Of a stretch of DNA of 64,000 bases, positions 19,894 to 32,343 are shown piece by piece. Origin of the DNA: Caproiciproducens galactitolivorans. Its GTDB lineage: Bacteria; Bacillota; Clostridia; Oscillospirales; Acutalibacteraceae. The stretch lies in the NCBI RefSeq assembly GCF_004768785.1, contig NZ_SRMQ01000001.1, positions 372,001 to 436,000 of the forward strand, given 5' to 3'. How positions within the stretch are numbered: the stretch's first letter is position 1; each line of letters starts with the position of its first letter. A program made the position numbers and the translations under genes. The notes under the pieces were generated by a model that saw only the letters and a list, made by a program, of their open reading frames with translations, had not been told where the DNA came from and searched no databases.

Positions 19894-20093
19894 CTCACGC
19901 CGTTTGCTCGAATTCTCTCGGTGCCATAGCCGTGGTAGTGCAAATAAAAAACCGGTAGATAAATTGTTTTAGCAGGCATGAATCAACTGGAGCTTTTTTC
20001 ATATGATAAGAGAAATATATGGAATTTGGCGCCTGCTGTTTTCCGGGAAAATTCAAAAATTGCCGCGGTATGGTTCTTTTTTATTGAAAAATA

Positions 20094-20102
20094 TGCTATA
20101 AT
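20094..20102 (+). promoter_or_regulatory. Extended -10 promoter of fhs
   Basis: TGCTATAAT, a perfect extended -10. The -35 (TTCTTT) is poor. The start would be near 20109, about 25 nt before the fhs ATG. Confidence 0.6.
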
Positions 20103-20133
20103 TTTGACATATTTTTTGTGAGGAGATGCACGA

Positions 20134-21801
20134 ATGCTAACTGACATCGAAATAGCGCAGCAGGCAAAGCTTTTACCGATTGCACAGGTTGCTTCCGAAC
20201 TCGATATTCATGAGGAAGAGCTAGAACCTTACGGCCGGTATAAAGCGAAGCTGAATGACTCTCTCTACAACAGACTTGCCTCCAAGAAGGACGGCAAACT
20301 CATCCTGGTAACGGCGATCAACCCGACTCCGGCGGGCGAGGGAAAAACCACGACAACGGCCGGTCTTGGGGAAGCAATGAAAAAAATCGGCAAAAAAGCG
20401 GTTATCGCCCTGCGGGAACCAAGCCTTGGGCCAGTATTCGGCATCAAGGGCGGGGCCGCCGGCGGCGGTTACGCGCAGGTAGTGCCGATGGAGGACATCA
20501 ACCTGCATTTTACCGGTGATTTTCATGCGATTACCTCCGCGAACAACCTTCTCTGCGCCATGCTCGACAACCATATGCAGCAGGGGAATGTCCTTGGAAT
20601 TGACCCGCGCAGGATTTTAATCAAGCGCTGCCTCGATATGAACGACCGCGCTTTACGGAATATTGTGATTGGACTCGGCGGGAAAATGAGCGGGGTTCCG
20701 CGTGAGGATAGCTTCTGCATTACGGTTGCGACGGAGGTTATGGCGATTTTCTGCCTTGCTTCCGACTTGCTGGATTTGAAGGAACGGCTTGGAAAGATTT
20801 TGATTGCCTATACTTATGAGGGCGCGCCCGTTTATGCGCGTGATTTAAAAGCGGAAGGAGCGATGGCCGCGCTTTTAAAGGATGCGATTTATCCGAACCT
20901 GGTGCAGACGCTGGAAGGAACGCCGGTTATCATGCACGGTGGGCCGTTTGCGAATATTGCCCACGGGTGCAATTCCGTAAGGGCGACGCGTCTGGCGCTT
21001 AAGCTTGCCGATTACTGCATTACGGAGGCAGGATTCGGTTCCGACCTCGGTGCGGAAAAGTTCCTCGATATTAAATGCCGCCTTGCGGGATTAAAGCCTA
21101 ACGCGATTGTGATTGTAGCCACCGCGCGCGCCTTGAAATACAACGGCGGCGTTCCAAAGGATAAAACTGCGTTGGAAAACCTCGATGCGCTGAAAAAGGG
21201 AATTGCCAATCTGGGCGCGCACATTTCCAACATGAAGAAATACGGCGTCCCGGTTGTTGTTGCGATTAACCGCTTTAACAATGATTTCGAAGCGGAACTG
21301 AGCTATATCGAGAACTACTGCCGTGAGAACGGTGCGGATTTCGCGCTGTCCGAGGTTTTTGCAAAAGGCGGCGCAGGCGGCGTGGATTTAGCGAGAAAGG
21401 TGTGCGAAGCGGCTGAGAAGCCGTCCAATTTCCAGCCGATTTATTCGGCGGATTCCACCATTAAACAGAAAATTGAGTGCATTGCAAAAGAGATATACGG
21501 CGCGGACGGTGTGGATTATACAAGTCAGGCGGAAAAAGCCTTGCGGGATATTGAAGCGCTCGGCGGGGATATACTGCCGGTCTGCATTGCGAAAACGCAG
21601 TATTCCTTATCGGATAACCCTGCTTTGTTAGGCAGGCCGGCCGGATTCCGAATTACCATCCGCGACTTGCGCCTTTCGAACGGGGCCGGTTTTGTCGTGG
21701 CCTACGCGGGTGATATTCTCACAATGCCCGGACTGCCCAAGGTGCCTTCCGCCGAAAAAATCGATGTGGATGCACAGGGAAGAATTTCAGGATTATTTTA
21801 A
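20134..21801 (+). CDS. fhs: Formate-tetrahydrofolate ligase
   Basis: Joins formate to tetrahydrofolate with ATP, giving 10-formyl-THF for purines, initiator Met-tRNA or acetogenic one-carbon flow. The 555-residue length is standard. The P-loop TPAGEGKTT (65-73), [18 protein letters not shown] and HFTGDFHAI are strongly conserved family motifs. AGGAG (20121-20125) lies 8 nt before the ATG. It heads a probable five-gene unit fhs-tsaE-tsaB-rpiB-upp with gaps of 17 nt or overlaps. Presence of fhs alone does not show acetogenesis. Confidence 0.98.
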
Positions 21802-21818
21802 GTTACAAGGGGACTGCT

Positions 21819-22244
21819 ATGCGGGACATAATGACATCTTCGTTGGCTGAAACAGAAGCGCTCGGCGTGAAAATAGCGGAAAAGCTTTCCGGCGGCGAGG
21901 TGATTGCGCTTTTCGGCGGAATGGGCATGGGAAAAACAGCCTTTACGCGCGGGCTTGCAAGGGGATTGGGAATTTCCGAAGGGGTTTCCAGCCCGACGTT
22001 TGCGCTGGTTCATGAATACCACGGCAGGTTGGACGTTTACCATTTTGATATGTTCCGCGTGTCCGGTTGGGACGACCTGTACTCCACCGGTTTTTTTGAT
22101 TATCTGGAGAGCGGGGGCGTTCTGGTAATCGAATGGAGCGAAAATATTGAAGCCGCGCTTCCGCAGGATGCAATCCGCATTGAAATCCGGCAGGGCGAAG
22201 GCGAAAACGAACGCATTTTTCATATTGAGGGGATGGAACTATGA
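21819..22244 (+). CDS. tsaE: tRNA threonylcarbamoyladenosine ATPase TsaE
   Basis: A 141-residue ATPase that helps TsaB and TsaD make the t6A37 modification of ANN-decoding tRNAs. The P-loop GGMGMGKTAFTRGLARGLG follows an N-terminal helix; SPTFALVHEYHG, VYHFDMFRV and LVIEWSENIE are the family's further motifs. AAGGGG precedes the ATG. The stop overlaps the tsaB start by 4 nt (ATGA), so the two are translationally coupled. tsaD is not in the window. Confidence 0.96.
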   Translation: MRDIMTSSLAETEALGVKIAEKLSGGEVIALFGGMGMGKTAFTRGLARGLGISEGVSSPTFALVHEYHGRLDVYHFDMFRVSGWDDLYSTGFFDYLESGGVLVIEWSENIEAALPQDAIRIEIRQGEGENERIFHIEGMEL

Positions 22245-22951
22245 GAATACTGGCGATTGATTCGTCGGCGACCGCGGCGTCCGCGGCATTGGTTGAGGAC
22301 GGAAAAGTGCTGGGTGAATTTTATATTAACACGAAGCTGACACACAGCCAGACGCTGATGCCGATGATTGATAATGTGCTGAAATGCACGCGCGCGGATT
22401 TACAGAGCGTGGATCTGTTTGCGGTCAGTTCCGGCCCCGGATCCTTTACGGGAGTCCGTATCGGCATCGCGAGCGTCAAGGGCCTTGCCATGGCGCAAGA
22501 CAAGCCCTGTGTGGGCGTGTCCACGTTGGAAGCAATGGCGCGGAATCTTGAACATATGGACTGTACGGTATGCGCGGTTATGGACGCGCGCTGCGGGCAG
22601 GTTTATAATGCGGTTTTTAGTGCACACGACGGAAGAATGGAAAGAATTACGGAAGACCGGGCGATCTCCATTCTGGATTTGGCGGAGGAATGTAAAAAAT
22701 TCGCAAAACCGCTGATGCTTGTTGGAGACGGCGCAAAATTGTGCTATAATAATGAACGGTTTCAAAGTCTTCATGCGCTTTTGCCGCCCGAGCCGCTGCT
22801 GTACCAGCGTGCCTGCGGCGTTGCGAAAGCCGCGTGCAAAGTATATGAGCAGGGCGGAGCAGTATCTTCCGCAGCTCTGATGCCGGTTTATCTACGCCCG
22901 CCGCAAGCGGAGCGCGAACTTAAAAAACGTATAGAAGGAGAAAACAAATGA
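22241..22951 (+). CDS. tsaB: tRNA threonylcarbamoyladenosine factor TsaB
   Basis: An ASKHA-fold protein of 236 residues that pairs with TsaD in t6A synthesis. It opens with ILAIDSSATAASAALVEDG and has HSQTLMPMIDNVL and the SSGPGSFTGVRIGIASVKGLA signature. The C-terminal extension contains PVYLRPPQAERE. It overlaps tsaE and rpiB by 4 nt each. Confidence 0.96.
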   Translation: MRILAIDSSATAASAALVEDGKVLGEFYINTKLTHSQTLMPMIDNVLKCTRADLQSVDLFAVSSGPGSFTGVRIGIASVKGLAMAQDKPCVGVSTLEAMARNLEHMDCTVCAVMDARCGQVYNAVFSAHDGRMERITEDRAISILDLAEECKKFAKPLMLVGDGAKLCYNNERFQSLHALLPPEPLLYQRACGVAKAACKVYEQGGAVSSAALMPVYLRPPQAERELKKRIEGENK

Positions 22952-23391
22952 TAGCTTTAGGAGCAGATCATGGCGGATTGCAGTTAAAAGAAGCGATCAA
23001 AAAGTATTTGGAAAACGAGAACATCGAATATAAAGATTTCGGAACGTTTGACGAAGCTTCCGTTGACTATGCGCCGATTGCGGCGAAGGTTGCACATTGT
23101 ATTATAAATGGAGAAGCGGAACGCGGGATCCTTTGCTGCGGGACAGGCATTGGAATGAGCATTGCCGCCAATAAGGTGAAAGGAATCCGCGCCTCTGTTT
23201 GCTCCGACACATACTGCACGGAAATGACGCGTCGTCACAACAACGCGAATATCCTCTGCCTGGGCGGAAGGGTTATTGACGAAGCAAAAGCAGTTGAGCT
23301 TGCAAAGATTTTCCTGCATGCTGAGTTTGAAGGCGGCCGCCATCAGCGTCGTCTCGACGAAATCGCAGCGATCGAGCGCGGCGAGCTGTAA
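22948..23391 (+). CDS. rpiB: Ribose-5-phosphate isomerase B
   Basis: Interconverts ribose 5-phosphate and ribulose 5-phosphate in the pentose phosphate pathway. The 147-residue chain has GADHGG at the N-terminus, the phosphate and catalytic loop CCGTGIGMSIAANK with the family's catalytic cysteine (Cys63 or Cys64), and RRHNNANILCLGGR. Length is typical. It overlaps tsaB by 4 nt and precedes upp by 24 nt; ribose 5-phosphate is the precursor of the PRPP used by Upp. Confidence 0.96.
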   Translation: MIALGADHGGLQLKEAIKKYLENENIEYKDFGTFDEASVDYAPIAAKVAHCIINGEAERGILCCGTGIGMSIAANKVKGIRASVCSDTYCTEMTRRHNNANILCLGGRVIDEAKAVELAKIFLHAEFEGGRHQRRLDEIAAIERGEL

Positions 23392-23415
23392 TTTTAAATT
23401 TGGAGGCTGTCAGAT

Positions 23416-24048
23416 ATGAATAAACAGGTCTTTATTATGGATCATCCCCTCATCCAGCATAAACTTACGTTTTTGCGTGATAAAAATACGGGCTCAAAGG
23501 AATTCCGCGAGCTGGTAGGCGAAATCGCAATGCTGATGTGTTATGAGGCCACAAGGGATTTACCCTTGGAGGAAACGACGATCGAAACACCGATCAGCAA
23601 AACAAAAACGAAGGTTATCGCGGGCAGAAAGCTCGCGTTTGTCCCGATTTTAAGAGCGGGCCTCGGTATGGTGGACGGCGTGCTCCGCATGGTGCCTGCC
23701 GCGAAGGTTGGTCATATCGGCCTTTACCGCGATCACGAAACCCTGCAGCCGGTCGAATATTACAGCAAGCTTCCGCTGGATATTAACGAGCGCGAAGTGA
23801 TCGTGCTGGATCCGATGCTTGCAACCGGCGGTTCGGGAATCGACGCTGTGACAATCATTAAGCGCAGCAACCCGAAGAGCATCCGCTTTATGTGCATTAT
23901 TGCAGCGCCGGAAGGGGTAAAAGCATTTACGGCTGCCCATCCGGATGTAGAGCTTTATTGCGCTGCCGTAGACGATCATCTTAACGAAAACGGCTATATT
24001 GTTCCGGGACTTGGCGATGCCGGTGACCGCATTTTCGGAACACTTTAA
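23416..24048 (+). CDS. upp: Uracil phosphoribosyltransferase
   Basis: Salvages uracil with PRPP to UMP. The 210-residue chain has the PRPP-binding motif [28 protein letters not shown] near the middle, and the uracil-contacting [15 protein letters not shown] near the C-terminus. TGGAGG precedes the ATG. It closes the fhs-tsaE-tsaB-rpiB-upp unit and is followed by a terminator at 24063-24086. Confidence 0.97.
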
Positions 24049-24062
24049 TATGAATAAAATCG

Positions 24063-24086
24063 GGGGCGGCTTTGGCCGTCCCTTTT
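24063..24086 (+). terminator. Rho-independent terminator of upp
   Basis: GGGGCGGC (24063-24070), loop TTTG, GCCGTCCC (24075-24082) with one G-T pair, then TTTT. Confidence 0.85.
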
Positions 24087-24105
24087 GTTATCTGGAGGTT
24101 AAAGA

Positions 24106-24207
24106 ATGGAACTGGAAGAAATGATCCGGTTTTTTACAGCGCGGGTGGACGAATACAACAAGCATATGCTAAGTTGTGGGCTCGAAAAGAGCCCGATATT
24201 CCGTTAA
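24106..24207 (+). pseudogene. Truncated start of a SAM methyltransferase-like gene
   Basis: A 33-codon frame with a perfect TGGAGG (24093-24098) and ATG. The peptide begins MELEEMIRFFTARVDEYNKHML, which resembles the N-terminus of class I SAM-dependent methyltransferases of Clostridiales that begin MEL..M..FF..R...YD.HML. After about residue 22 the similarity ends and a stop follows. The rest of the domain is missing; the yjdF-type leader begins directly afterwards. I infer a deletion that fused the start of one gene to the leader of the next. The family match is from memory. A 6-bp GGGCTC/GAGCCC hairpin (24178-24194) lies in the junction. Confidence 0.5.
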
Positions 24208-24219
24208 GATAGGATTCGA

Positions 24220-24325
24220 AAAGACAAAAACACAGTTCTGGTTGGTAGTCCAGACGCGGCAATCAGCCGTCAGTAACCTGCCTCCTAAGGTTGTCCAGTC
24301 TTTGTTAAGTTGTTTTTTGGGAGGA
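24220..24325 (+). ncRNA. Candidate yjdF-type (azaaromatic) riboswitch leader
   Basis: The leader directly in front of the broken yjdF gene can fold into a closing stem (AAAGAC 24220-24225 with GTCTTT 24298-24303) that encloses three hairpins: TCTGG/CCAGA (24237-24254), CGGC/GCCG (24257-24269) and AACC/GGTT (24275-24292). Past the closing stem comes a T-rich stretch and the ribosome binding site GGGAGGAA. yjdF genes of Firmicutes are known to be preceded by the yjdF motif RNA, which senses azaaromatic compounds. Assignment rests on position and multistem form; I could not compare it with the covariance model. Confidence 0.55.
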
Positions 24326-24332
24326 ACTTCAG

Positions 24333-24714
24333 ATGGACAAATGCAGAATTACGGTGTTTTTTGAGAACCCTTTCTGGGTTGGTGTAATGGAACAGCTGAT
24401 CGATGGAAAGCTGGAAGCTGCGAAAGTAACGTTCGGTGCGGAATCAAAGGATTATGAGATTTACAGCTATTTCTACTGGAAAATCAAAAGATTGAATAAA
24501 AGAAAATCAATCCAAAACGGTTGCAGTAGCTTATCAACCGCCAATTATTGCAAAGCGGAATCGGCACAAGCACAGCAGGCCCTGAAGCTGCAGCAGGAGC
24601 AAGGGAAAACTGGAACGGAAATCTTTTAATCGGAAACAGTTGGAAGAGGAAGAACAGCGGCGGTTTGAACTGCGCCAGAAAAAGAAAAACACAGGGGCAG
24701 ATAACTGCATATGA
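24333..24714 (+). pseudogene. yjdF: Frameshifted yjdF (DUF2992) pseudogene
   Basis: The frame opens with MDKCRITVFFENPFWVGVME and GKLEAAKVTFGAESKDYEIY, the start of the DUF2992/YjdF family. The middle is damaged: NPKRLQ and NRQLLQSGIGT appear in another frame with stop codons in it (TAA and TAG), then AQQALKLQQEQGK returns in the first frame. An apparent extra A near 24608 again shifts the frame, and the family's charged tail LERKSFNRKQLEEEEQRR and FELRQKKK continues in a third segment to TGA 24712-24714. Part of the central region also seems deleted. At least three independent lesions make a working protein unlikely. Its leader looks intact. Confidence 0.82.
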
Positions 24715-24718
24715 AGAT

Positions 24719-24748
24719 GGCTTTGAACCATTAAGGTTCAAAGCCTTT
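24719..24748. terminator. Terminator between yjdF remnant and DUF4380 gene
   Basis: GGCTTTGAACC (24719-24729), loop ATTAA, GGTTCAAAGCC (24735-24745): an 11-bp perfect stem. TTTCTCT follows on the plus strand. It lies just past the stop codon of the convergent DUF4380 gene. Confidence 0.8.
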
Positions 24749-24750
24749 CT

Positions 24751-25689
24751 CTATAAATTCAATTCCTGTACAAATTTTTGGACACTATCTTCATTTAAAG
24801 GGTCGAATATAGCTGGTGTTTTCATCAGGAACAGGTTTTCCACGTGCCGGATGCCTTCTCCGGGCTCAAGACTGTACAGCGGGCTTAGCGTCTGCATTTC
24901 TATAAAATCCTTACACAGATAGGTTTCGGAAGAACAGCCGTAATCCGGGTAAGGGGCCGACGGGCTGTGCACATATCGCTTGACCAGCGTGGTATCGCCG
25001 TTCGCATAGCAGGCCCAGCCGGGGAAATTATTCAGCCCGATTTTAAGGGGCTTTTCATTCTCTTTTTCATGCCGGACGGTGATGAACCGATGGCCAAAGC
25101 AAAGCCGGTTATCGTGGAAATCCGTATTGGGCCAAAGGGATAGGGTCCGGTTGGGGGAAATCAGATTTTCGCCCTCCGCATTGAAAGGAAGAATTTCCGT
25201 TCCGCCTCCATTCAGCATGGTGACTGCCCATAGCGCGCAGGCACGCTTTTCTTTCGAATCATTCTTCGCGCTGTGTACGACCATAATATCGGTTGTGCCT
25301 TCGCTCATAATAATTTCAAAGCTAAGCTGCATATCCGTTTGCTTTTGTCGGGGTGGAGTAAAGGTAACCCCTTCCGGCAAAATGCCGTAAACCACCGGTT
25401 CATTGTCCGGGTAATAGGTGTCCGGCATCTTTTCCGGGCTTAGCCAGATACGGTGTCCCCCGTAATATAAAAAGGCGGCGTCCCTGCCGAAACGCTCTTC
25501 AATTTTTTCGTTCTGTACAGTATATTTCCGTTCCAAATCATTATAAAGGATATTCGATCCGCCCGTAAAACCGAAACGCACAATCCGCGGTCCAAAATTG
25601 ATTGTAACGACAACATCGATTAATCCATTGCTGATCTCCAAACATTTCCCATAGTTCTCGTATTTGATTTCCTTTATTTCAACAGACAA
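24751..25689 (-). CDS. DUF4380 family protein (aldose-epimerase-like fold suspected)
   Basis: A 312-residue cytosolic protein. The N-terminus (LEISNGLIDVVVTINFGPRIVRFGF) and GGHRIWLSPEKMPDTYYPDNEPV follow the pattern of DUF4380 proteins, which have a mutarotase-like beta-sandwich by family annotation. Conserved His, Trp and Glu residues would be candidates for sugar contacts, but no activity is established. It has no signal peptide. It follows tmcAL by 21 nt and is probably co-transcribed, though a functional link is not obvious. Confidence 0.75.
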   Translation of the reverse strand: MSVEIKEIKYENYGKCLEISNGLIDVVVTINFGPRIVRFGFTGGSNILYNDLERKYTVQNEKIEERFGRDAAFLYYGGHRIWLSPEKMPDTYYPDNEPVVYGILPEGVTFTPPRQKQTDMQLSFEIIMSEGTTDIMVVHSAKNDSKEKRACALWAVTMLNGGGTEILPFNAEGENLISPNRTLSLWPNTDFHDNRLCFGHRFITVRHEKENEKPLKIGLNNFPGWACYANGDTTLVKRYVHSPSAPYPDYGCSSETYLCKDFIEMQTLSPLYSLEPGEGIRHVENLFLMKTPAIFDPLNEDSVQKFVQELNL

Positions 25690-25710
25690 TTAAGACACAT
25701 CCTTTCAGCA

Positions 25711-26901
25711 TCAAGACGAAATGGATAGAATACCTGTTGTCCGGTCGCGCCCACAGGGCGCCGCCTGCGAGGAACAAAGGGAATACAGGTCCGTTGCCCT
25801 GCTTTCTAATTCAAGCACACTTTTCCCATCATTGTCAAGGGACAATATGTCTGATGTGTTGGTAACAATAGGGAGTTTTACAGAGGATTTTCGCGAATGC
25901 AGAATTTCCGTCCCCCGTTTGTTAAATCCAAGGACGCGAAGATAGGGGGGGACTCTTTTATTCAAAGAAGAATCTAATTCTAAAAAAGCGGAAAGCACAA
26001 TCCTGCGGATGCGCGCGTGCGTATACCGTTTGGATTTAATAAGCGAATACAATTCGTCAAGGGAGCAGGCTTGGCGGGAAGCATCGTATATGCGGTTTTC
26101 CAGGCCTTCGCTAATGTCCGGTAGGGAAGCGAATTCTTCGCGGCTCATACCCCGCAGCTTTGCGAGGATGGCCCGTTCCACCGTCCCAATAGAAACCGGC
26201 GCGCTGCCCGCCTTGATTTCCCGCAGCGCGATTTCCGCCGCGTTCTCCGGCATCCATGCGGCAAAGCTTTCCCCGGTATGCATGCATTTCCGTATCTTTG
26301 AAGCGGAGGCAATGTCATTCACGGCATCCTGCGCATCATGTGCAGCCCCAATGCGTTGAATCGTAAAAGGGATCACTTTGGAATGTAGGCGGTCTACTGC
26401 CTTTAGATATTCAATCGCGAGAATATTGTTGGGTTCCCGAAGAAGGCGGGAGGCTTCGCCGTCGATTTGGCTCATGGCGTTCTGCCTTGCTTTTGCGAAG
26501 GTCGCCCCGTTTTTGATTTCGTTTTTTATCGCGTCGCGGAAACTGGAGGAGTTCAGCGCTTTTGCCGCACTTTGCAGCTCGTCGATCCGGCCGCACTCGC
26601 TTCCAAAACTCAATATGTCGACACCAAGCGCATCCAGAAGGAAAACCCCGCCGAACGCAAAGGTTTCCGCGCCGGAAAGCGCCCATGGAAGCGGGAGCTC
26701 CAATACAAGATCAACGCCGTTCAAAAGCGCCTGTCTGGTTCTGGCCCATTTTGAAAGGATAGCTGGTTCGCCACGTTGGACAAAATTGCCGCTCATGACC
26801 GCAACAATGTGCGTAGCACCTTCCTCACGGGTACGCGATATGAGTGCGGCGTGTCCGCGGTGAAACGGATTAAATTCAGAAACAATCCCCGCAGTAAGCA
26901 T
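25711..26901 (-). CDS. tmcAL: tRNA(Met) cytidine acetate ligase TmcAL
   Basis: Makes N4-acetylcytidine at the wobble position of elongator tRNA-Met from acetate and ATP in known members (YlbM of Bacillus). The 396-residue chain begins GIVSEFNPFHRGHAALI, the HIGH-like nucleotidyl-transfer motif, followed by MSGNFVQRGEPAI, and has LREPNNILAIEYL and ASKIRKCMHTGE further on. It is divergent from ackA, which makes and uses acetate; the shared promoter region is therefore of interest. An AAGGAG-type site precedes ATG 26901. Confidence 0.94.
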   Translation of the reverse strand: MLTAGIVSEFNPFHRGHAALISRTREEGATHIVAVMSGNFVQRGEPAILSKWARTRQALLNGVDLVLELPLPWALSGAETFAFGGVFLLDALGVDILSFGSECGRIDELQSAAKALNSSSFRDAIKNEIKNGATFAKARQNAMSQIDGEASRLLREPNNILAIEYLKAVDRLHSKVIPFTIQRIGAAHDAQDAVNDIASASKIRKCMHTGESFAAWMPENAAEIALREIKAGSAPVSIGTVERAILAKLRGMSREEFASLPDISEGLENRIYDASRQACSLDELYSLIKSKRYTHARIRRIVLSAFLELDSSLNKRVPPYLRVLGFNKRGTEILHSRKSSVKLPIVTNTSDILSLDNDGKSVLELESRATDLYSLCSSQAAPCGRDRTTGILSISS

Positions 26902-26915
26902 TTTTCATAAACTCC

Positions 26916-26944
26916 TTGAATTTCCGAAGTGGTAGTACTATTAT
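26916..26944 (+). promoter_or_regulatory. Promoter of ackA
   Basis: TTGAAT (26916-26921), 17-nt spacer, TATTAT (26939-26944). The leader is about 50 nt. The -10 overlaps the -10 of the opposite promoter. A small TACTA-TTA-TAGTA dyad also covers it. Confidence 0.7.
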
Positions 26945-26968
26945 AGTATATGGTGTTATTTATGTCGA
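26940..26968 (-). promoter_or_regulatory. Promoter of tmcAL
   Basis: Minus strand: TCGACA (26963-26968), 17-nt spacer, TATAAT (26940-26945). The start would be near 26933, about 30 nt before ATG 26901. Confidence 0.7.
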
Positions 26969-27002
26969 TACAAGCATAAAAGTAATTTTAGGAGGAATAA
27001 GT

Positions 27003-28256
27003 ATGAAGATTCTGGTAATCAATGCCGGCAGCTCTTCTTTAAAGTATCAGTTAATTGATATGGATACGGAAGAAATGCTTGCAAAAGGCAATTGCGAAAG
27101 GATAGGCATTAAGGGAGGAACATTCAGCCATAAAACTGCGGATGGCCGCAAAAAAGATTTGAATGTGGAAATGGCTAGCCATATCGATGCGTTTAAGCTG
27201 GTAACGGCTGCCTTAACGGATAAACAGGTTGGGGTAATCAAGGATTTGTCGGAGGTTACGGCAATCGGCCACCGTGTGGTTCAAGGTGGTGCAAAATTCA
27301 GCAAATCCCTTTATGTTAATGATGATGTTATTGAAGGAATAAAAGAATTAATTCCTTTGGCTCCCCTTCACAACGGCCCGGAGCTACAGGGAATTCTTGC
27401 TTGCCAGAAAGTTTTCGGAAAAGATGTGCCGGAATGCGTTGTCTTTGATACCGCTTTCCATTCGACCATGCCGAAAAAGGCATATATGTTTGCTATTCCT
27501 TATGAATATTATGAGAAGTATAAAATTCGCCGCTACGGTTTCCACGGCACATCCCACCGTTACGTCAGCTCGCGCTGCGCGCAGTTGATGCATCAGCCTC
27601 TTGAGGATATCGATATGGTTACCTGCCATATTGGGAACGGTTCTTCTATTGCGGCTATCCATGGCGGAGAAGTAATCGATACCAGCATGGGCCTGACTCC
27701 GTTGGACGGTTTCATGATGGGTACGCGTTGCGGATCGCTCGACCCGTCCATTGTAACCTTTATTATGGAAAAAGAGGGCCTTACCCCGGAACAGATGAAC
27801 GAAATTCTGAACAAAAAGTCCGGCCTTCTCGGTATTTCGGGTTACAGCGATGACCGTGATGTAACAAAGGCGGAAATTGAAGGAAACAAAAGGGCCATTC
27901 TTGCGCATGAAATGCTGAGCTACCAGATTATTAAATTCATCGGCTCTTACGCGGCGGCGATGAACGGCCTTGACTGCATCGTGTTTACAGCGGGCCTTGG
28001 CGAAAATCAGACCCACCTGCGTTATTCGATTTGCCGCGGGCTGAAATACTTCGGTGTAAAAATTGACCCGGTTCTGAACGATAAAATGATACATGGGCGC
28101 GAGGGTAAGATTTCCGCATTTGATTCCAAGGTTGCTGTATATGTTGTACCGACAAATGAAGAGCTTCTGATTGCACGCGATACAAAAGAAATTGTTGAGA
28201 AGCTGACATATGCTTCCACAGAGGATAAGACGGTTGTTGATCTGGAAGACATCTAA
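27003..28256 (+). CDS. ackA: Acetate kinase
   Basis: Interconverts acetyl phosphate plus ADP with acetate plus ATP, the ATP-yielding end of acetate fermentation. The 417-residue chain starts MKILVINAGSSSLKYQL and has VFDTAFHSTMP, RRYGFHGTSHRYV, TCHIGNGSSIAAI and FTAGLGENQ, all kinase signatures. It is about 17 residues longer at the C-terminus than typical enzymes. AGGAGG (26990-26995) fixes ATG 27003 over upstream in-frame codons. No pta gene is adjacent. It has its own terminator at 28351-28396. Confidence 0.98.
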   Translation: MKILVINAGSSSLKYQLIDMDTEEMLAKGNCERIGIKGGTFSHKTADGRKKDLNVEMASHIDAFKLVTAALTDKQVGVIKDLSEVTAIGHRVVQGGAKFSKSLYVNDDVIEGIKELIPLAPLHNGPELQGILACQKVFGKDVPECVVFDTAFHSTMPKKAYMFAIPYEYYEKYKIRRYGFHGTSHRYVSSRCAQLMHQPLEDIDMVTCHIGNGSSIAAIHGGEVIDTSMGLTPLDGFMMGTRCGSLDPSIVTFIMEKEGLTPEQMNEILNKKSGLLGISGYSDDRDVTKAEIEGNKRAILAHEMLSYQIIKFIGSYAAAMNGLDCIVFTAGLGENQTHLRYSICRGLKYFGVKIDPVLNDKMIHGREGKISAFDSKVAVYVVPTNEELLIARDTKEIVEKLTYASTEDKTVVDLEDI

Positions 28257-28350
28257 TCCAAAATAGAACGGTGCTCTCGTAGATAAGAATAGAAAAACAT
28301 AGAATTTTCATATACTTAAATCATAACAAGCGTTCTGCGCTATACAAAAG

Positions 28351-28396
28351 CCCTCCTGCCACTTCACAACATTACGGCAGGAGGGTTTGTTTTGTT
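28351..28396. terminator. Terminator of ackA (also usable from the V-ATPase side)
   Basis: CCCTCCTGCC (28351-28360) and GGCAGGAGGG (28376-28385), a 10-bp perfect stem with 15-nt loop, then TTTGTTTTGTT. On the minus strand the stem is followed by CTTTTG, so it can also end the atp operon. Confidence 0.92.
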
Positions 28397-28419
28397 GATC
28401 TGAAAATCCGACTGAACGA

Positions 28420-29034
28420 TCATTTTTGCAATTTTTGTTTTTTTATGACTTTAAGTCTTGAGAACTCCTCGCGATCCTTTTCTTCTAGTGCGTCCGTGAT
28501 AAACTTCACTGTAGTCTCAAACCATGGGATCATAATATTTTTCAGAGCATTTGCTCGTTTCTGCGTCTTTTTAATCGCGACGGCCAGCCGGTAAACGCTG
28601 TTTTCCACTTCGGCCAGTTCCGCGGTGAGGCGCTTGACTTCTTCAAATTTTTTGTAGGCGTCGTCCAGCATAATATTGGTGGAATTCAGCCCGAACGGAA
28701 TCGGAATGCTGACCGGGTCGTACGAAACCATGGGAATCTCCACGCCCATAACGCTTCGATAAGCCACATTCAGGCTATTATCGAGCGGAACAGTACGGGA
28801 CAGTTCGTCGCAGATGCCAAGGGTAATATTTGCCCTTTGAAGCGCGGCATATGCCGCATCGTACGTATCATCAATTTTTCCTTGAATTTTCGCCGCCCGC
28901 TCAATCAGGGCCATCATTTCCCGTATTAAAATGTTCCGTTTCCGGTCAAGAAGCTCAAAACCTGTGCGTGAAAGCGCAAGGGACTTTTTTGTGGCGAGCA
29001 AATTTCCTTTTGTCGGAACGATTTGGTTGCTCAA
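28420..29034 (-). CDS. atpD: V-type ATPase subunit D
   Basis: The central rotor shaft of the V1 part. The 204-residue chain is mostly two long antiparallel helices; the N-terminus IVPTKGNLLATKKSLALSRTGFELLDRKRNIL and the C-terminal KKTQKRANALKNIMIPWFETTVKFI are the conserved parts. Last gene of the operon, 82 nt after atpB. Confidence 0.95.
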   Translation of the reverse strand: MSNQIVPTKGNLLATKKSLALSRTGFELLDRKRNILIREMMALIERAAKIQGKIDDTYDAAYAALQRANITLGICDELSRTVPLDNSLNVAYRSVMGVEIPMVSYDPVSIPIPFGLNSTNIMLDDAYKKFEEVKRLTAELAEVENSVYRLAVAIKKTQKRANALKNIMIPWFETTVKFITDALEEKDREEFSRLKVIKKQKLQK

Positions 29035-29116
29035 TGCGGCACACCTCCTTCGGTTGGTAAAAATTGCGCGGTGAAAATGCGGTGCAATTTTCTATGTGCT
29101 ATCCTGCGCTTTCATA

Positions 29117-30541
29117 CTATTCGTCAATGCTTTTTTCGGGTTCCGTCACAGAGGAATCCGACTGAATCGCTTTTTCATAGTATTTATCAAGAATCACGTC
29201 GTCCACACGATCGAGTTCTTCACGCGGCAGCGTGGAAAGAAGCTTCCAGCCCAAATCCAAACTTTGTTCGATGGAACGGTTTTCATTAAAGCCCTGTGCT
29301 ACAAACTGGGATTCAAACCGTTTACCGAATTCAATGTATTTTTTATCGACAGGGGAGAGCTCTTCTTCACCGATAACAGAGGCGAGCGAACGGGCGTCCA
29401 TTACTTTCGCATAAGATGCGAAAAGCTGATTGGAAAGCGCCGGATGGTCTTCACGCGTAAAGCCTTCGCCGATGCCGTCCTTCATCAGACGGGAAAGGGA
29501 AGGAAGGACGGAAACCGGCGGATAAACACCGGAATTGTCCAGAACGCGGTCAAGCACGATCTGTCCTTCGGTGATGTATCCGGTCAAATCCGGTACCGGA
29601 TGGGTAACGTCGTCGTTCGGCATTGTGAGAATTGGGATTTGGGTTACAGACCCTTTTTTGCCGCGCACCATGCCCGCGCGTTCGTAAAGGGAGGCAAGGT
29701 CGGAATACAGGTAGCCCGGGAATCCCTTTCTGCCCGGAATTTCGCCTTTGGAAGAACTGAACTCACGCAGCGCTTCCGCATAGGAGGTCATATCCGTCAT
29801 AATGACGAGGATATGCATATCCAGCTCAAAGGCAAGGTATTCGGCAACCGTCAGCGCGCAGCGCGGGGTCAGAATTCTTTCAATAATCGGATCGTTAGCA
29901 AGGTTCAGGAACATAACAACCCTTTGCAGAACACCGGATTCCTCGAAAGAACGCCGGAAGTATTCGGCAACGTCGTTTTTAACGCCCATTGCGGCAAAGA
30001 CAATTGCAAAATTATTGCCGCTGTTGTCGGTGATCTTTGCCTGCCTTGCAATCTGAACGGCAAGCTCGTTATGCTTCATACCGGAGCCGGAGAAAATGGG
30101 GAGTTTCTGCCCGCGAATCAGCGTCATCAACGTATCGATGGTTGAAATGCCAGTATTGATGTAGTTTTTCGGATATTCACGGGATACCGGGTTAATCGGC
30201 GTTCCGTTAATATCTGCCTTCTTCACCGGAAAAATGTTTCCCAACCCGTCAATCGGCCGACCCGCACCGTCGAATACGCGGCCGAGAATTTCCGGGGAAA
30301 GCGGCATTTGCATTGGGTGACCTTTCAGCCTGGTGCGCGTGTTGTCCAGCGAAATGCCGCGCGTACCTTCAAATACCTGAATGACTGCCCGCTTACCGTC
30401 CAACTGAACGATTCTGCCCTGGCGCATAGTGCCGTTTTCCAGACGGATATCGACAACCTCTTCAAACGACGCGTTTTCAACGTTGTCTAGCACAATCAGC
30501 GAACCGTTTATTTCCTTTAGACCAATGTAATCAAGAATCAT
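29117..30541 (-). CDS. atpB: V-type ATPase subunit B (non-catalytic)
   Basis: A 474-residue subunit that alternates with A in the V1 hexamer. It has the beta-barrel start ([19 protein letters not shown]), IGTPINP-like and [29 protein letters not shown], and in place of a Walker A the degenerate loop [12 protein letters not shown], as expected for the non-catalytic subunit. [35 protein letters not shown] is a strong family block. It lies 41 nt after atpA. Confidence 0.97.
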
Positions 30542-30582
30542 GGTGTAACCACCTTCTTAGGTAAAATTAGTATCCGTCCGAA

Positions 30583-32343
30583 TCAGGATTCGAGAATGGC
30601 GGACAGAGCCTCATCAATTTCGTTGATGTAATTATCGAATATTTCTAGTTTATTGTTGGGAATATCATACTTCATTTTCACTATTTTATCGAACAACCCG
30701 GTCTGTTTAATCACCGAAATCGGAACGGAAGCGGTTACAAGCTGCTTCGATTTCTTATAAAGATGAAGGATAACTTCCATCATCCGCTTCTGCTTTTCAA
30801 GCGGCACATAGGTGTCTTCCGCATGGAATGCGTTCTGCTGCAGGAAACCGACGCGGATAAGACGCGCAATTTCAATGATCAGCTTCTGATCGTCCGGCAG
30901 AACATCCGAACCAATCAGCTTTACGATTTCCATTAACTGGCTTTCTTCCTGTAAGATGCGGTTAACCTGTACGCGGTATTTTAAAAATTCTTTGCCAAGG
31001 TTTTTTTCGTACCATGGGTCAAGATCGCTAAAATACTCGCTGTAGCTTTGCGTCCAGTTGATTGCCGGGTAATGTCTCGCGTAAGCGAGGGCTTTGTCCA
31101 GCGCCCAGAAACAGCGGGTAAAACGCTTGGTGTTCTGCGTAACCGGTTCGGAAAAGTCCGAACCCTGCGGGGAAACGGCGCCGATTATCGTAATGGATCC
31201 GTCTGTGTTATTCAGATTCTTTACCATTCCTGCGCGCTCGTAAAATTCAGATAAGCGGCTTGGCAGATAGGCAGGGAAGCCTTCTTCCGCCGGCATTTCT
31301 TCCAAGCGGCCGGAAATTTCACGTAGTGCTTCTGCCCAGCGGGACGTAGAGTCCGCCATAATGGCAACATGGTAACCCATATCGCGATAATATTCGGCAA
31401 GCGTAATGCCGGTGTAAATAGAAGCTTCGCGCGCCGCAACCGGCATGTTGCTCGTATTTGCGATCAAAACCGTACGGTCGGTCATCGGCCTGCCCGATTT
31501 CGGATCCATCAGCGCCGAGAATTCGTCCAAAACCTGACACATTTCGTTGCCGCGTTCGCCGCAGCCGACGTAAATGATGATATCGGCGTCGCACCATTTC
31601 GCAAGCTGGTGCTGCGTCATGGTTTTTCCCGTGCCGAAACCGCCCGGAATCGCCGCTGTGCCGCCCTTGGAAATGGGGAACAGGGTGTCAATTACACGCT
31701 GACCGGTTATGAGCGGAACTTTTGTCTGGAGCCGCTCGGACACCGGGCGCGGCGTACGGATCGGCCATTTCTGACAAAGAGTGAGCTTGTGTATTTCACC
31801 GTGCTGATCCTCCAGCTCAAGGATGGTATCGTTTACCTTATACTTCCCGTTCCCAACGACTTTCTTTACGATGCCGGAAAGCAGGGGAGGAACCATGCAT
31901 TTATGTGTTATGATGGTTGTTTCCGGGCACTCGGCGTAAATATCGCCGCCCTTAAGCTGGTCACCTTCGTGCACCTTGATAGTTACATCCCATAGGCGGT
32001 TTTCGTCCAGCGCGGAAACGTTGCTGCCGCGCGCGATGAACGCACCGGATTGCTCCGCAACTCTTTTGAGCGGCCGCTCGATTCCATCGAATATATTATC
32101 GATGATTCCAGGACCTAAAGTTACGTTCATAGGGCTCCCAGTACCGTAGATCGGTTCGCCGGGTCGCAGCCCGGTCGTTTCTTCGTAAACCTGGATGGTA
32201 ATAAATTGGTCCGTAATACCGATGACTTCACCGACAAGGCGTTCATTGCCGACATAAACCATCTCCATCATCGAGAAGCTGCGTGAGTTTTTAACGGTTA
32301 CAACGGAACCATTAATGCCGTATATAATATTCTGATTCTCCAT
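30583..32343 (-). CDS. atpA: V-type ATPase subunit A (catalytic)
   Basis: The catalytic subunit of the rotary ion-pumping ATPase. The 586-residue chain has the barrel domain, the V-type insertion domain around residues 110-200, Walker [13 protein letters not shown] (234-241 core), GCGERGNEM, and the Walker B region [33 protein letters not shown] 32343 is chosen because minus-strand GGAG (32353-32356) lies 9 nt upstream and abuts the next in-frame ATG at 32352, which excludes it. The gene follows atpE by 31 nt. Confidence 0.98.

Follow-up and report, generated by a model that had tools for sequence, protein, structure and literature searches.

A yjdF riboswitch with an intact-looking core before a broken yjdF gene: very probably debris of a recently lost unit

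Does a riboswitch outlive its gene because it still serves a purpose, or has it simply had too little time to decay? The window, by which we mean the whole 64,000-nucleotide stretch of DNA that was analysed, raises this question at one locus, where a structured leader RNA precedes the remains of a yjdF (DUF2992) gene. An earlier note, made from the letters, had offered two readings, recent debris or an RNA that acts on something else. We hold it very probable that the leader is debris of a recently dead yjdF unit in an early stage of decay.

The leader RNA and the remains of its gene

The search with the RF01764 covariance model that the note had proposed gave one hit above the gathering score of 45 in the 64-kb window. 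It lies at 24214-24314 (plus strand), scores 84.9 bits with a window-wide E of 7.5e-16 and spans model positions 1-101 of 101; the same locus was the single one in the whole genome at E <= 0.001. On this evidence the RNA is a genuine member of the azaaromatic (yjdF) riboswitch class. The note had rightly placed a yjdF-type RNA before a ribosome binding site and the start of yjdF, and its closing stem and three hairpins are present in the RF01764 alignment as P1 to P4; its limits for the RNA, 24220-24325, were a few bases off. The locus comprises the following features, in which upp, like rpiB elsewhere in the region, was named from Pfam and the other genes by eye.

24062-24083, terminator-like hairpin between the leader unit and upp (scan)
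24106-24171, plus strand, remnant of a methyltransferase-like gene start of about 22 codons, upstream of the leader, where the comparison genome G002 differs
24182-24210, plus strand, predicted leader promoter (-35 TCGAAA at 24182-24187, 17-nt spacer, -10 TAAGAT at 24205-24210)
24214-24314, plus strand, yjdF (azaaromatic) riboswitch (RF01764, 84.9 bits, full length)
24217-24224 and 24299-24306, plus strand, 5' and 3' strands of the closing stem P1 (RF01764 alignment)
24235-24255, plus strand, hairpin P2 (RF01764 alignment)
24256-24270, plus strand, hairpin P3 (RF01764 alignment)
24280-24291, plus strand, hairpin P4 (RF01764 alignment)
24281-24290, plus strand, anti-Shine-Dalgarno stretch CCTCCTAAGG inside P4, a potential pairing partner of the ribosome site
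24319-24324, plus strand, ribosome binding site GGGAGG, partner of P4 in the off state
24333-24704, plus strand, yjdF (DUF2992) pseudogene (PF11208 match, lesions relative to G002)
24719-24745, plus strand, terminator-like hairpin behind the pseudogene (scan)

The conserved core nucleotides and the stems P1-P4 of RF01764 were found. A P4 that matches the adjoining gene's ribosome site, a further mark of the class, is present by its predicted pairing: CCTCCTAAGG and the stretch ending in GGGAGG form a predicted duplex of -13.9 kcal/mol, inside the range of the gene-bearing relatives (-10.5 to -17.6 kcal/mol), and one of its A-U pairs has become G-U through an A to G change in the ribosome site on the window's branch. 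At columns conserved to 90%, the aptamer core deviates twice in the window and three times in G002, where yjdF is intact, and the window's core is no worse than that of G002. P1 keeps six of its eight pairs and has lost one relative to G002, at model positions 6-91, which read A-G in the window and C-G in G002. This pair is standard in 41 of the 42 gene-bearing RNAs of the family set, the sole exception being a genus relative (G008) in which the stem is perhaps shifted by one base. Most pairings are conserved in relatives, a point on which the note had asked for a check, and its remark that the RNA looks intact holds for the core and the P4 pairing, though one P1 pair is lost and, outside the RNA, the -35 box has lost a T. 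Core and P4 pairing speak for the idea that selection has retained the RNA after the loss of yjdF, as a stand-alone element, a trans-acting RNA or a ligand sponge, an idea that we nevertheless consider very unlikely.

A PF11208-matching frame begins 18 bases past the RNA, but it belongs to a pseudogene. The open frame at 24333-24629 (ATG at 24333, 98 codons) matches PF11208 DUF2992 at 64.1 bits, and the yjdF genes of the six genus relatives that carry both RNA and gene are 137-139 codons long (137 in G002). The full-length frame with a lysine/arginine-rich end, as expected of a functional yjdF, is absent from the window. The several frameshifts that the note had reported were borne out by comparison with G002: 6, 28, 2 and 7 bases are missing (after 24474, 24480, 24569 and 24680) and one is extra (24601), at coordinates that are approximate since gaps are uncertain by a few bases, and with the 6- and 28-base losses maybe a single event. 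The start codon and the first ~49 codons are unbroken, and ~30 shifted residues follow before the frame closes. No second yjdF copy was found in the genome in a search to E <= 10, the only other row lying inside the same pseudogene. The species is represented by one genome, which would allow for a sequencing or assembly error that makes an intact yjdF look broken. Against this stand several separate lesions, one of 28 bases, within so short a gene, and since the eight genes flanking yjdF show no frame break over 2415 codons aligned with G002, we reject assembly noise in general and consider such an error extremely improbable. Judging from these lesions, the yjdF of the window is dead, inactivated by several indels.

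Time of gene loss and surroundings of the leader

G002, the nearest relative in the comparison set, served as reference for lesions and divergence. Its gene order is that of window positions 20007-30907, most of which is covered by blastn blocks of 88, 83 and 87% identity, and its leader lies in the same chromosomal place behind upp with 104 of 113 aligned bases identical. It differs in its intact yjdF, its -35 box (TTGAAA), the additional P1 pair and, upstream, in an acetyltransferase-like frame (by eye) where the window has the methyltransferase-like remnant.

The yjdF remnant and the gene of G002 differ by 23 synonymous and 15 nonsynonymous changes over 117 codons, giving a w of 0.139 (bootstrap range 0.06-0.29; two codons reading as stops in the G002 frame excluded), and the eight flanking genes give 0.027-0.110. 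Since this divergence is mostly synonymous, selection acted on yjdF through most of the period after the split. With a w of 0 to 0.11 assumed for the living gene, and with 116 codons under a stricter contiguity rule, the point estimate has yjdF free of selection for 7-28% of the branch, during which the 113-base leader should have gathered 1.5-6.4 neutral changes; with w at its upper bootstrap bound of 0.295 these figures rise to 42-59% and 9.6-13.6. The death of the gene therefore appears to be recent, late on the window's branch. So few neutral changes are expected since then that an intact-looking RNA is no sign of retention, and the late death, having left the RNA little time to change, supports the view of the leader as debris. 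The leader differs from that of G002 at 9 of 113 sites, against 376 of 1066 four-fold sites, a contrast that we rejected as evidence of retention because the gene was alive for most of that time. When G010 is used to polarise the nine substitutions, six are assigned to the window's branch and three to that of G002, which is not a significant excess.

The same comparison bears on the truncated product of 98 residues, which might still be made under riboswitch control and be functional. The preserved start codon, ribosome site and ~49 codons, with few amino-acid changes, fit this proposal. Yet the ~30 shifted residues are followed by an end before the lysine/arginine-rich tail, a feature described for YjdF representatives by Li et al. 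2016 (PMC4793209), and w does not differ between the front 47 codons (0.131) and the remaining 70 (0.143), so that divergence past the first lesion is also mostly synonymous, as if the whole frame had been used until recently. We consider a functional short product very unlikely.

Changes were also seen in front of the RNA. In the window the -35 hexamer starts with TCG, where each of the six genus relatives that carry both RNA and gene has TTG (16-17 nt spacing); the aligned second -35 column holds T in all six, with the hexamer lying one base over in two of them. A wider tally has T at the second -35 position in 38 of 46, biased upwards since hexamers were picked automatically by score. A consensus promoter scan found the leader promoter in G002 and none in the window at 24000-24800, at a level no better than chance (2 found against 1.6 in shuffles; 0 against 1.1) and with a threshold of 9 of 12 matches that the G002 promoter just reaches with exactly 9. 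The terminator scan returned three sites in the region against 1.0 in shuffles, and the stretch of G002 aligned to the hairpin at 24719-24745 is similar in look, yet was not called. Further upstream, 20 of the 22 residues of the remnant at 24106-24171 can be aligned (55% identity, E 4e-4) to a frame in L067, the sole locus hit, and the continuation of this frame resembles a class I methyltransferase (family name by eye). Because G002 has other sequence here, the stretch upstream of the leader seems unstable too.

The possibility that the RNA acts on something else, which the note had raised, finds no support at this locus. The pseudogene is followed by two genes on the opposite strand (24751-25689 and 25711-26901), the next long plus-strand frame begins at 26916 (acetate-kinase-like by eye), and in the frame list, by eye, we judged no same-strand gene before 26916 plausible as a target. 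That the -35 box and P1 are altered at conserved positions, and that recent gene death explains the intactness of the RNA, both argue against a sensor retained by selection.

Aptamers with and without yjdF in relatives

RF01764 was surveyed in 11 genomes of the genus and in samples of the family (398 genomes, 46 hits), class (391, 34) and phylum (398, 22), which together gave 98 distinct hits; 97 were assessable after G024, whose RNA runs to a contig end, had been left out. PF11208 was searched in the genus, the family sample and 49 further RNA-bearing genomes. Within the genus the RNA occurs in seven genomes and a PF11208 match in nine; six have both RNA and gene intact, the window's genome has the RNA with a dead gene, and G006 and G009 have neither, although completeness ranges from 64 to 99.99% and absences in the poorer genomes are weak. 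One member, G001 (L010, G001:C1:785308-785703), has an intact yjdF and no RF01764 hit in its genome; PadR neighbours are reported for yjdF genes of this RNA-less kind (PMC4793209). Another, G004 (L017/L021, G004:C26:10866-11072, minus strand), carries a yjdF fragment that follows immediately on the end of an upstream frame, PhzF-like by eye, with no RF01764 hit in its genome. In this genus yjdF looks dispensable, and it appears to have been broken at least twice.

An intact yjdF stands behind 81 of the 97 assessable aptamers. Of the 16 orphans, nine have a frameshift or stop that breaks yjdF (G000, G178, G219, G843, G727, G842, G968, G473 and G588), four have it cut short (G1103, G214, G658 and, by eye, the second copy of G767), two lack any PF11208 match in the genome (G806 and G1156) and one, the first copy of G262, precedes another gene. 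Single lesions, as in G178 and G843, could be sequencing errors, and G212, G400 and G048, which a crude filter had flagged, were counted as intact on full PF11208 matches. Among the 859 distinct RNAs examined by Li et al. 2016, a non-yjdF element behind the RNA was very rare, a count that may treat broken yjdF genes differently from our 16 of 97 (PMC4793209). Among papers listed in searches on riboswitches before dead genes, DUF2992 and yjdF, no title or abstract beginning described gene-less yjdF aptamers, which leaves their absence from the literature unproven.

Several of these loci are of interest in themselves. In L182 (G658:C57:46465-46662, minus strand) the RNA is followed by 22 matched yjdF residues that run in frame into an unrelated stretch, and Pfam detects the DUF2992 start only. 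In L132 (G214:C21:35971-36188) 18 matched residues lead into part of an ADP-ribosylglycohydrolase frame (PF03747 positions 118-236 of 287), reflecting a deletion or a misassembly. L175, L179 and L177 (G843, G968 and G1103) belong to one genus and all have yjdF broken or cut behind the RNA. This lineage may have a divergent RNA, since unusual core changes are common to G843 and G968; the RNA of G1103 is quite different.

If selection retained the RNA without its gene, orphans should be as well preserved as aptamers that still have yjdF. Over the columns with at least 90% conservation among gene-bearing RNAs, the 16 orphans had a median of 3 deviations and the 81 gene-bearing RNAs a median of 0 (Mann-Whitney p 0.0005), and at least three core deviations were present in 9 of 16 orphans against 9 of 81 gene-bearing RNAs; column thresholds of 85% and 95% agreed in direction. 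Relative to its nearest gene-bearing relative, an orphan had more deviations in 10 cases, equally many in 3 and fewer in 3, the window's RNA being among the last (Wilcoxon p 0.004, with neighbours at varying distance, 70-98% identity). Since gene-bearing RNAs compared with their own nearest gene-bearing neighbours gave 23 more, 46 equal and 12 fewer, some lean towards more deviations is built into this test. Shared ancestry is only partly controlled among the 97 aptamers, G843 and G968 being of one genus with one neighbour, and the count covers RNAs above the model threshold and misses those eroded below it. As a group, orphan aptamers are more eroded than gene-bearing ones; the window's own core is not. 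The group erosion argues against a sensor retained by selection, in whose favour there remain four orphans with zero core deviation (G178, G262a, G1103 and G658). A trans-acting riboswitch, reportedly known in Listeria, offers that idea a precedent.

In one genome a yjdF aptamer stands before an intact gene of another kind. G262 (L133) carries two near-identical copies of the upstream stretch and RNA 1.3 kb apart, with RNAs 98% identical.

L133 2356-2484 (G262:C2:13855-13983), first RNA copy
L133 3622-3750 (G262:C2:15121-15249), second RNA copy

The first directly precedes a DUF6483 gene (PF20092, 82.8 bits) and the second an intact yjdF; P4 is predicted to pair more weakly with the ribosome site before DUF6483 (-8.8) than in the other copy (-13.5). 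By its sequence the first copy resembles a sensor that has been put before a new intact gene, the only such case in the 97 and found in a single genome. Rare associations of yjdF RNAs elsewhere hint at NAD+ or FMN metabolism (PMC7266159), and in Streptococcus thermophilus such an RNA lies before an NAD+ synthesis operon (PMC2864571). One might go further and see in the 16 of 97 aptamers that outlive their genes a pool of spare sensors for new genes, with the window's RNA at an early stage of this path or already stand-alone; we consider this proposal very unlikely.

Returning to the leader as debris of a recently dead unit, we counted in its favour the -35 and P1 changes at conserved positions, the lack of a same-strand target, the group erosion and G004. 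Counted against it were the core, with 2 deviations against 3 in G002; the P4 duplex of -13.9, as strong as in relatives; the w bound of 0.29, which allows a selection-free share of the branch of up to 59% and up to 13.6 neutral changes in the leader against the six counted; the six against three changes, which are no significant excess; the missing P1 pair in G008; and, in the 97-aptamer test, the partial control of shared ancestry and the four orphans whose cores do not deviate. On balance, the late death, the changes in promoter and P1 and the erosion of orphans as a group bear out the recent debris that the note had offered as an alternative.

According to the published mechanism, the ribosome site is held by P4 in the ligand-free RNA (PMC4793209, PMC9142559); chelerythrine and harmine are among the ligands named (PMC9142559). 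The leader would accordingly have been an ordinary translational ON riboswitch of the RF01764 class with one target gene, yjdF, recently inactivated by several indels. Going by the papers on other members, P4 would have been paired with the ribosome site in the absence of ligand while the gene was alive, and ligand binding would have freed the site. Judged by pairing, both states may still be formable, and the RNA of the window could in principle still switch; the present transcript would encode a product cut to 98 residues, which lacks the lysine/arginine-rich end. The RNA would then look intact through shortness of time and not through being kept. We infer weakened transcription, lack of function and this order of events.

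The locus carries a warning that an intact-looking riboswitch is not the same as a working one, and it gives a sense of timing, with a leader still at ~85 bits at a time when several indels have already struck the gene. Frequent loss of yjdF, and a tendency of its aptamer to erode once the gene is gone, suggest that the RNA does little on its own. Retargeting might be sought in the few orphans that have not eroded and in the copy before DUF6483.

Comparison with known systems

With the RF01764 class (PMC2864571, PMC9142559, PMC4793209) the leader shares the four-stem junction, the full-length model match, a P4 anti-Shine-Dalgarno that faces the ribosome site, and a place directly before a yjdF start codon. 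It differs in that its yjdF is dead and its -35 box and P1 have changed at positions conserved in relatives. The yjdF RNA of S. thermophilus likewise has no yjdF behind it; it stands before an intact operon of another kind and is described without the typical P4, whereas the window has remains of yjdF and a P4, and it is the G262 copy before DUF6483 for which the S. thermophilus case is a precedent (PMC2864571). An inactivated target is also found in Bordetella pertussis, where a Mn riboswitch precedes the decayed exporter gene BP3410 (PMC8546581). There the lesion is a reversible tandem duplication and the riboswitch was shown to work (PMC8546581), while the gene in the window has several separate indels. 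Set among these systems, the RNA of the window adds one member to a known riboswitch class.
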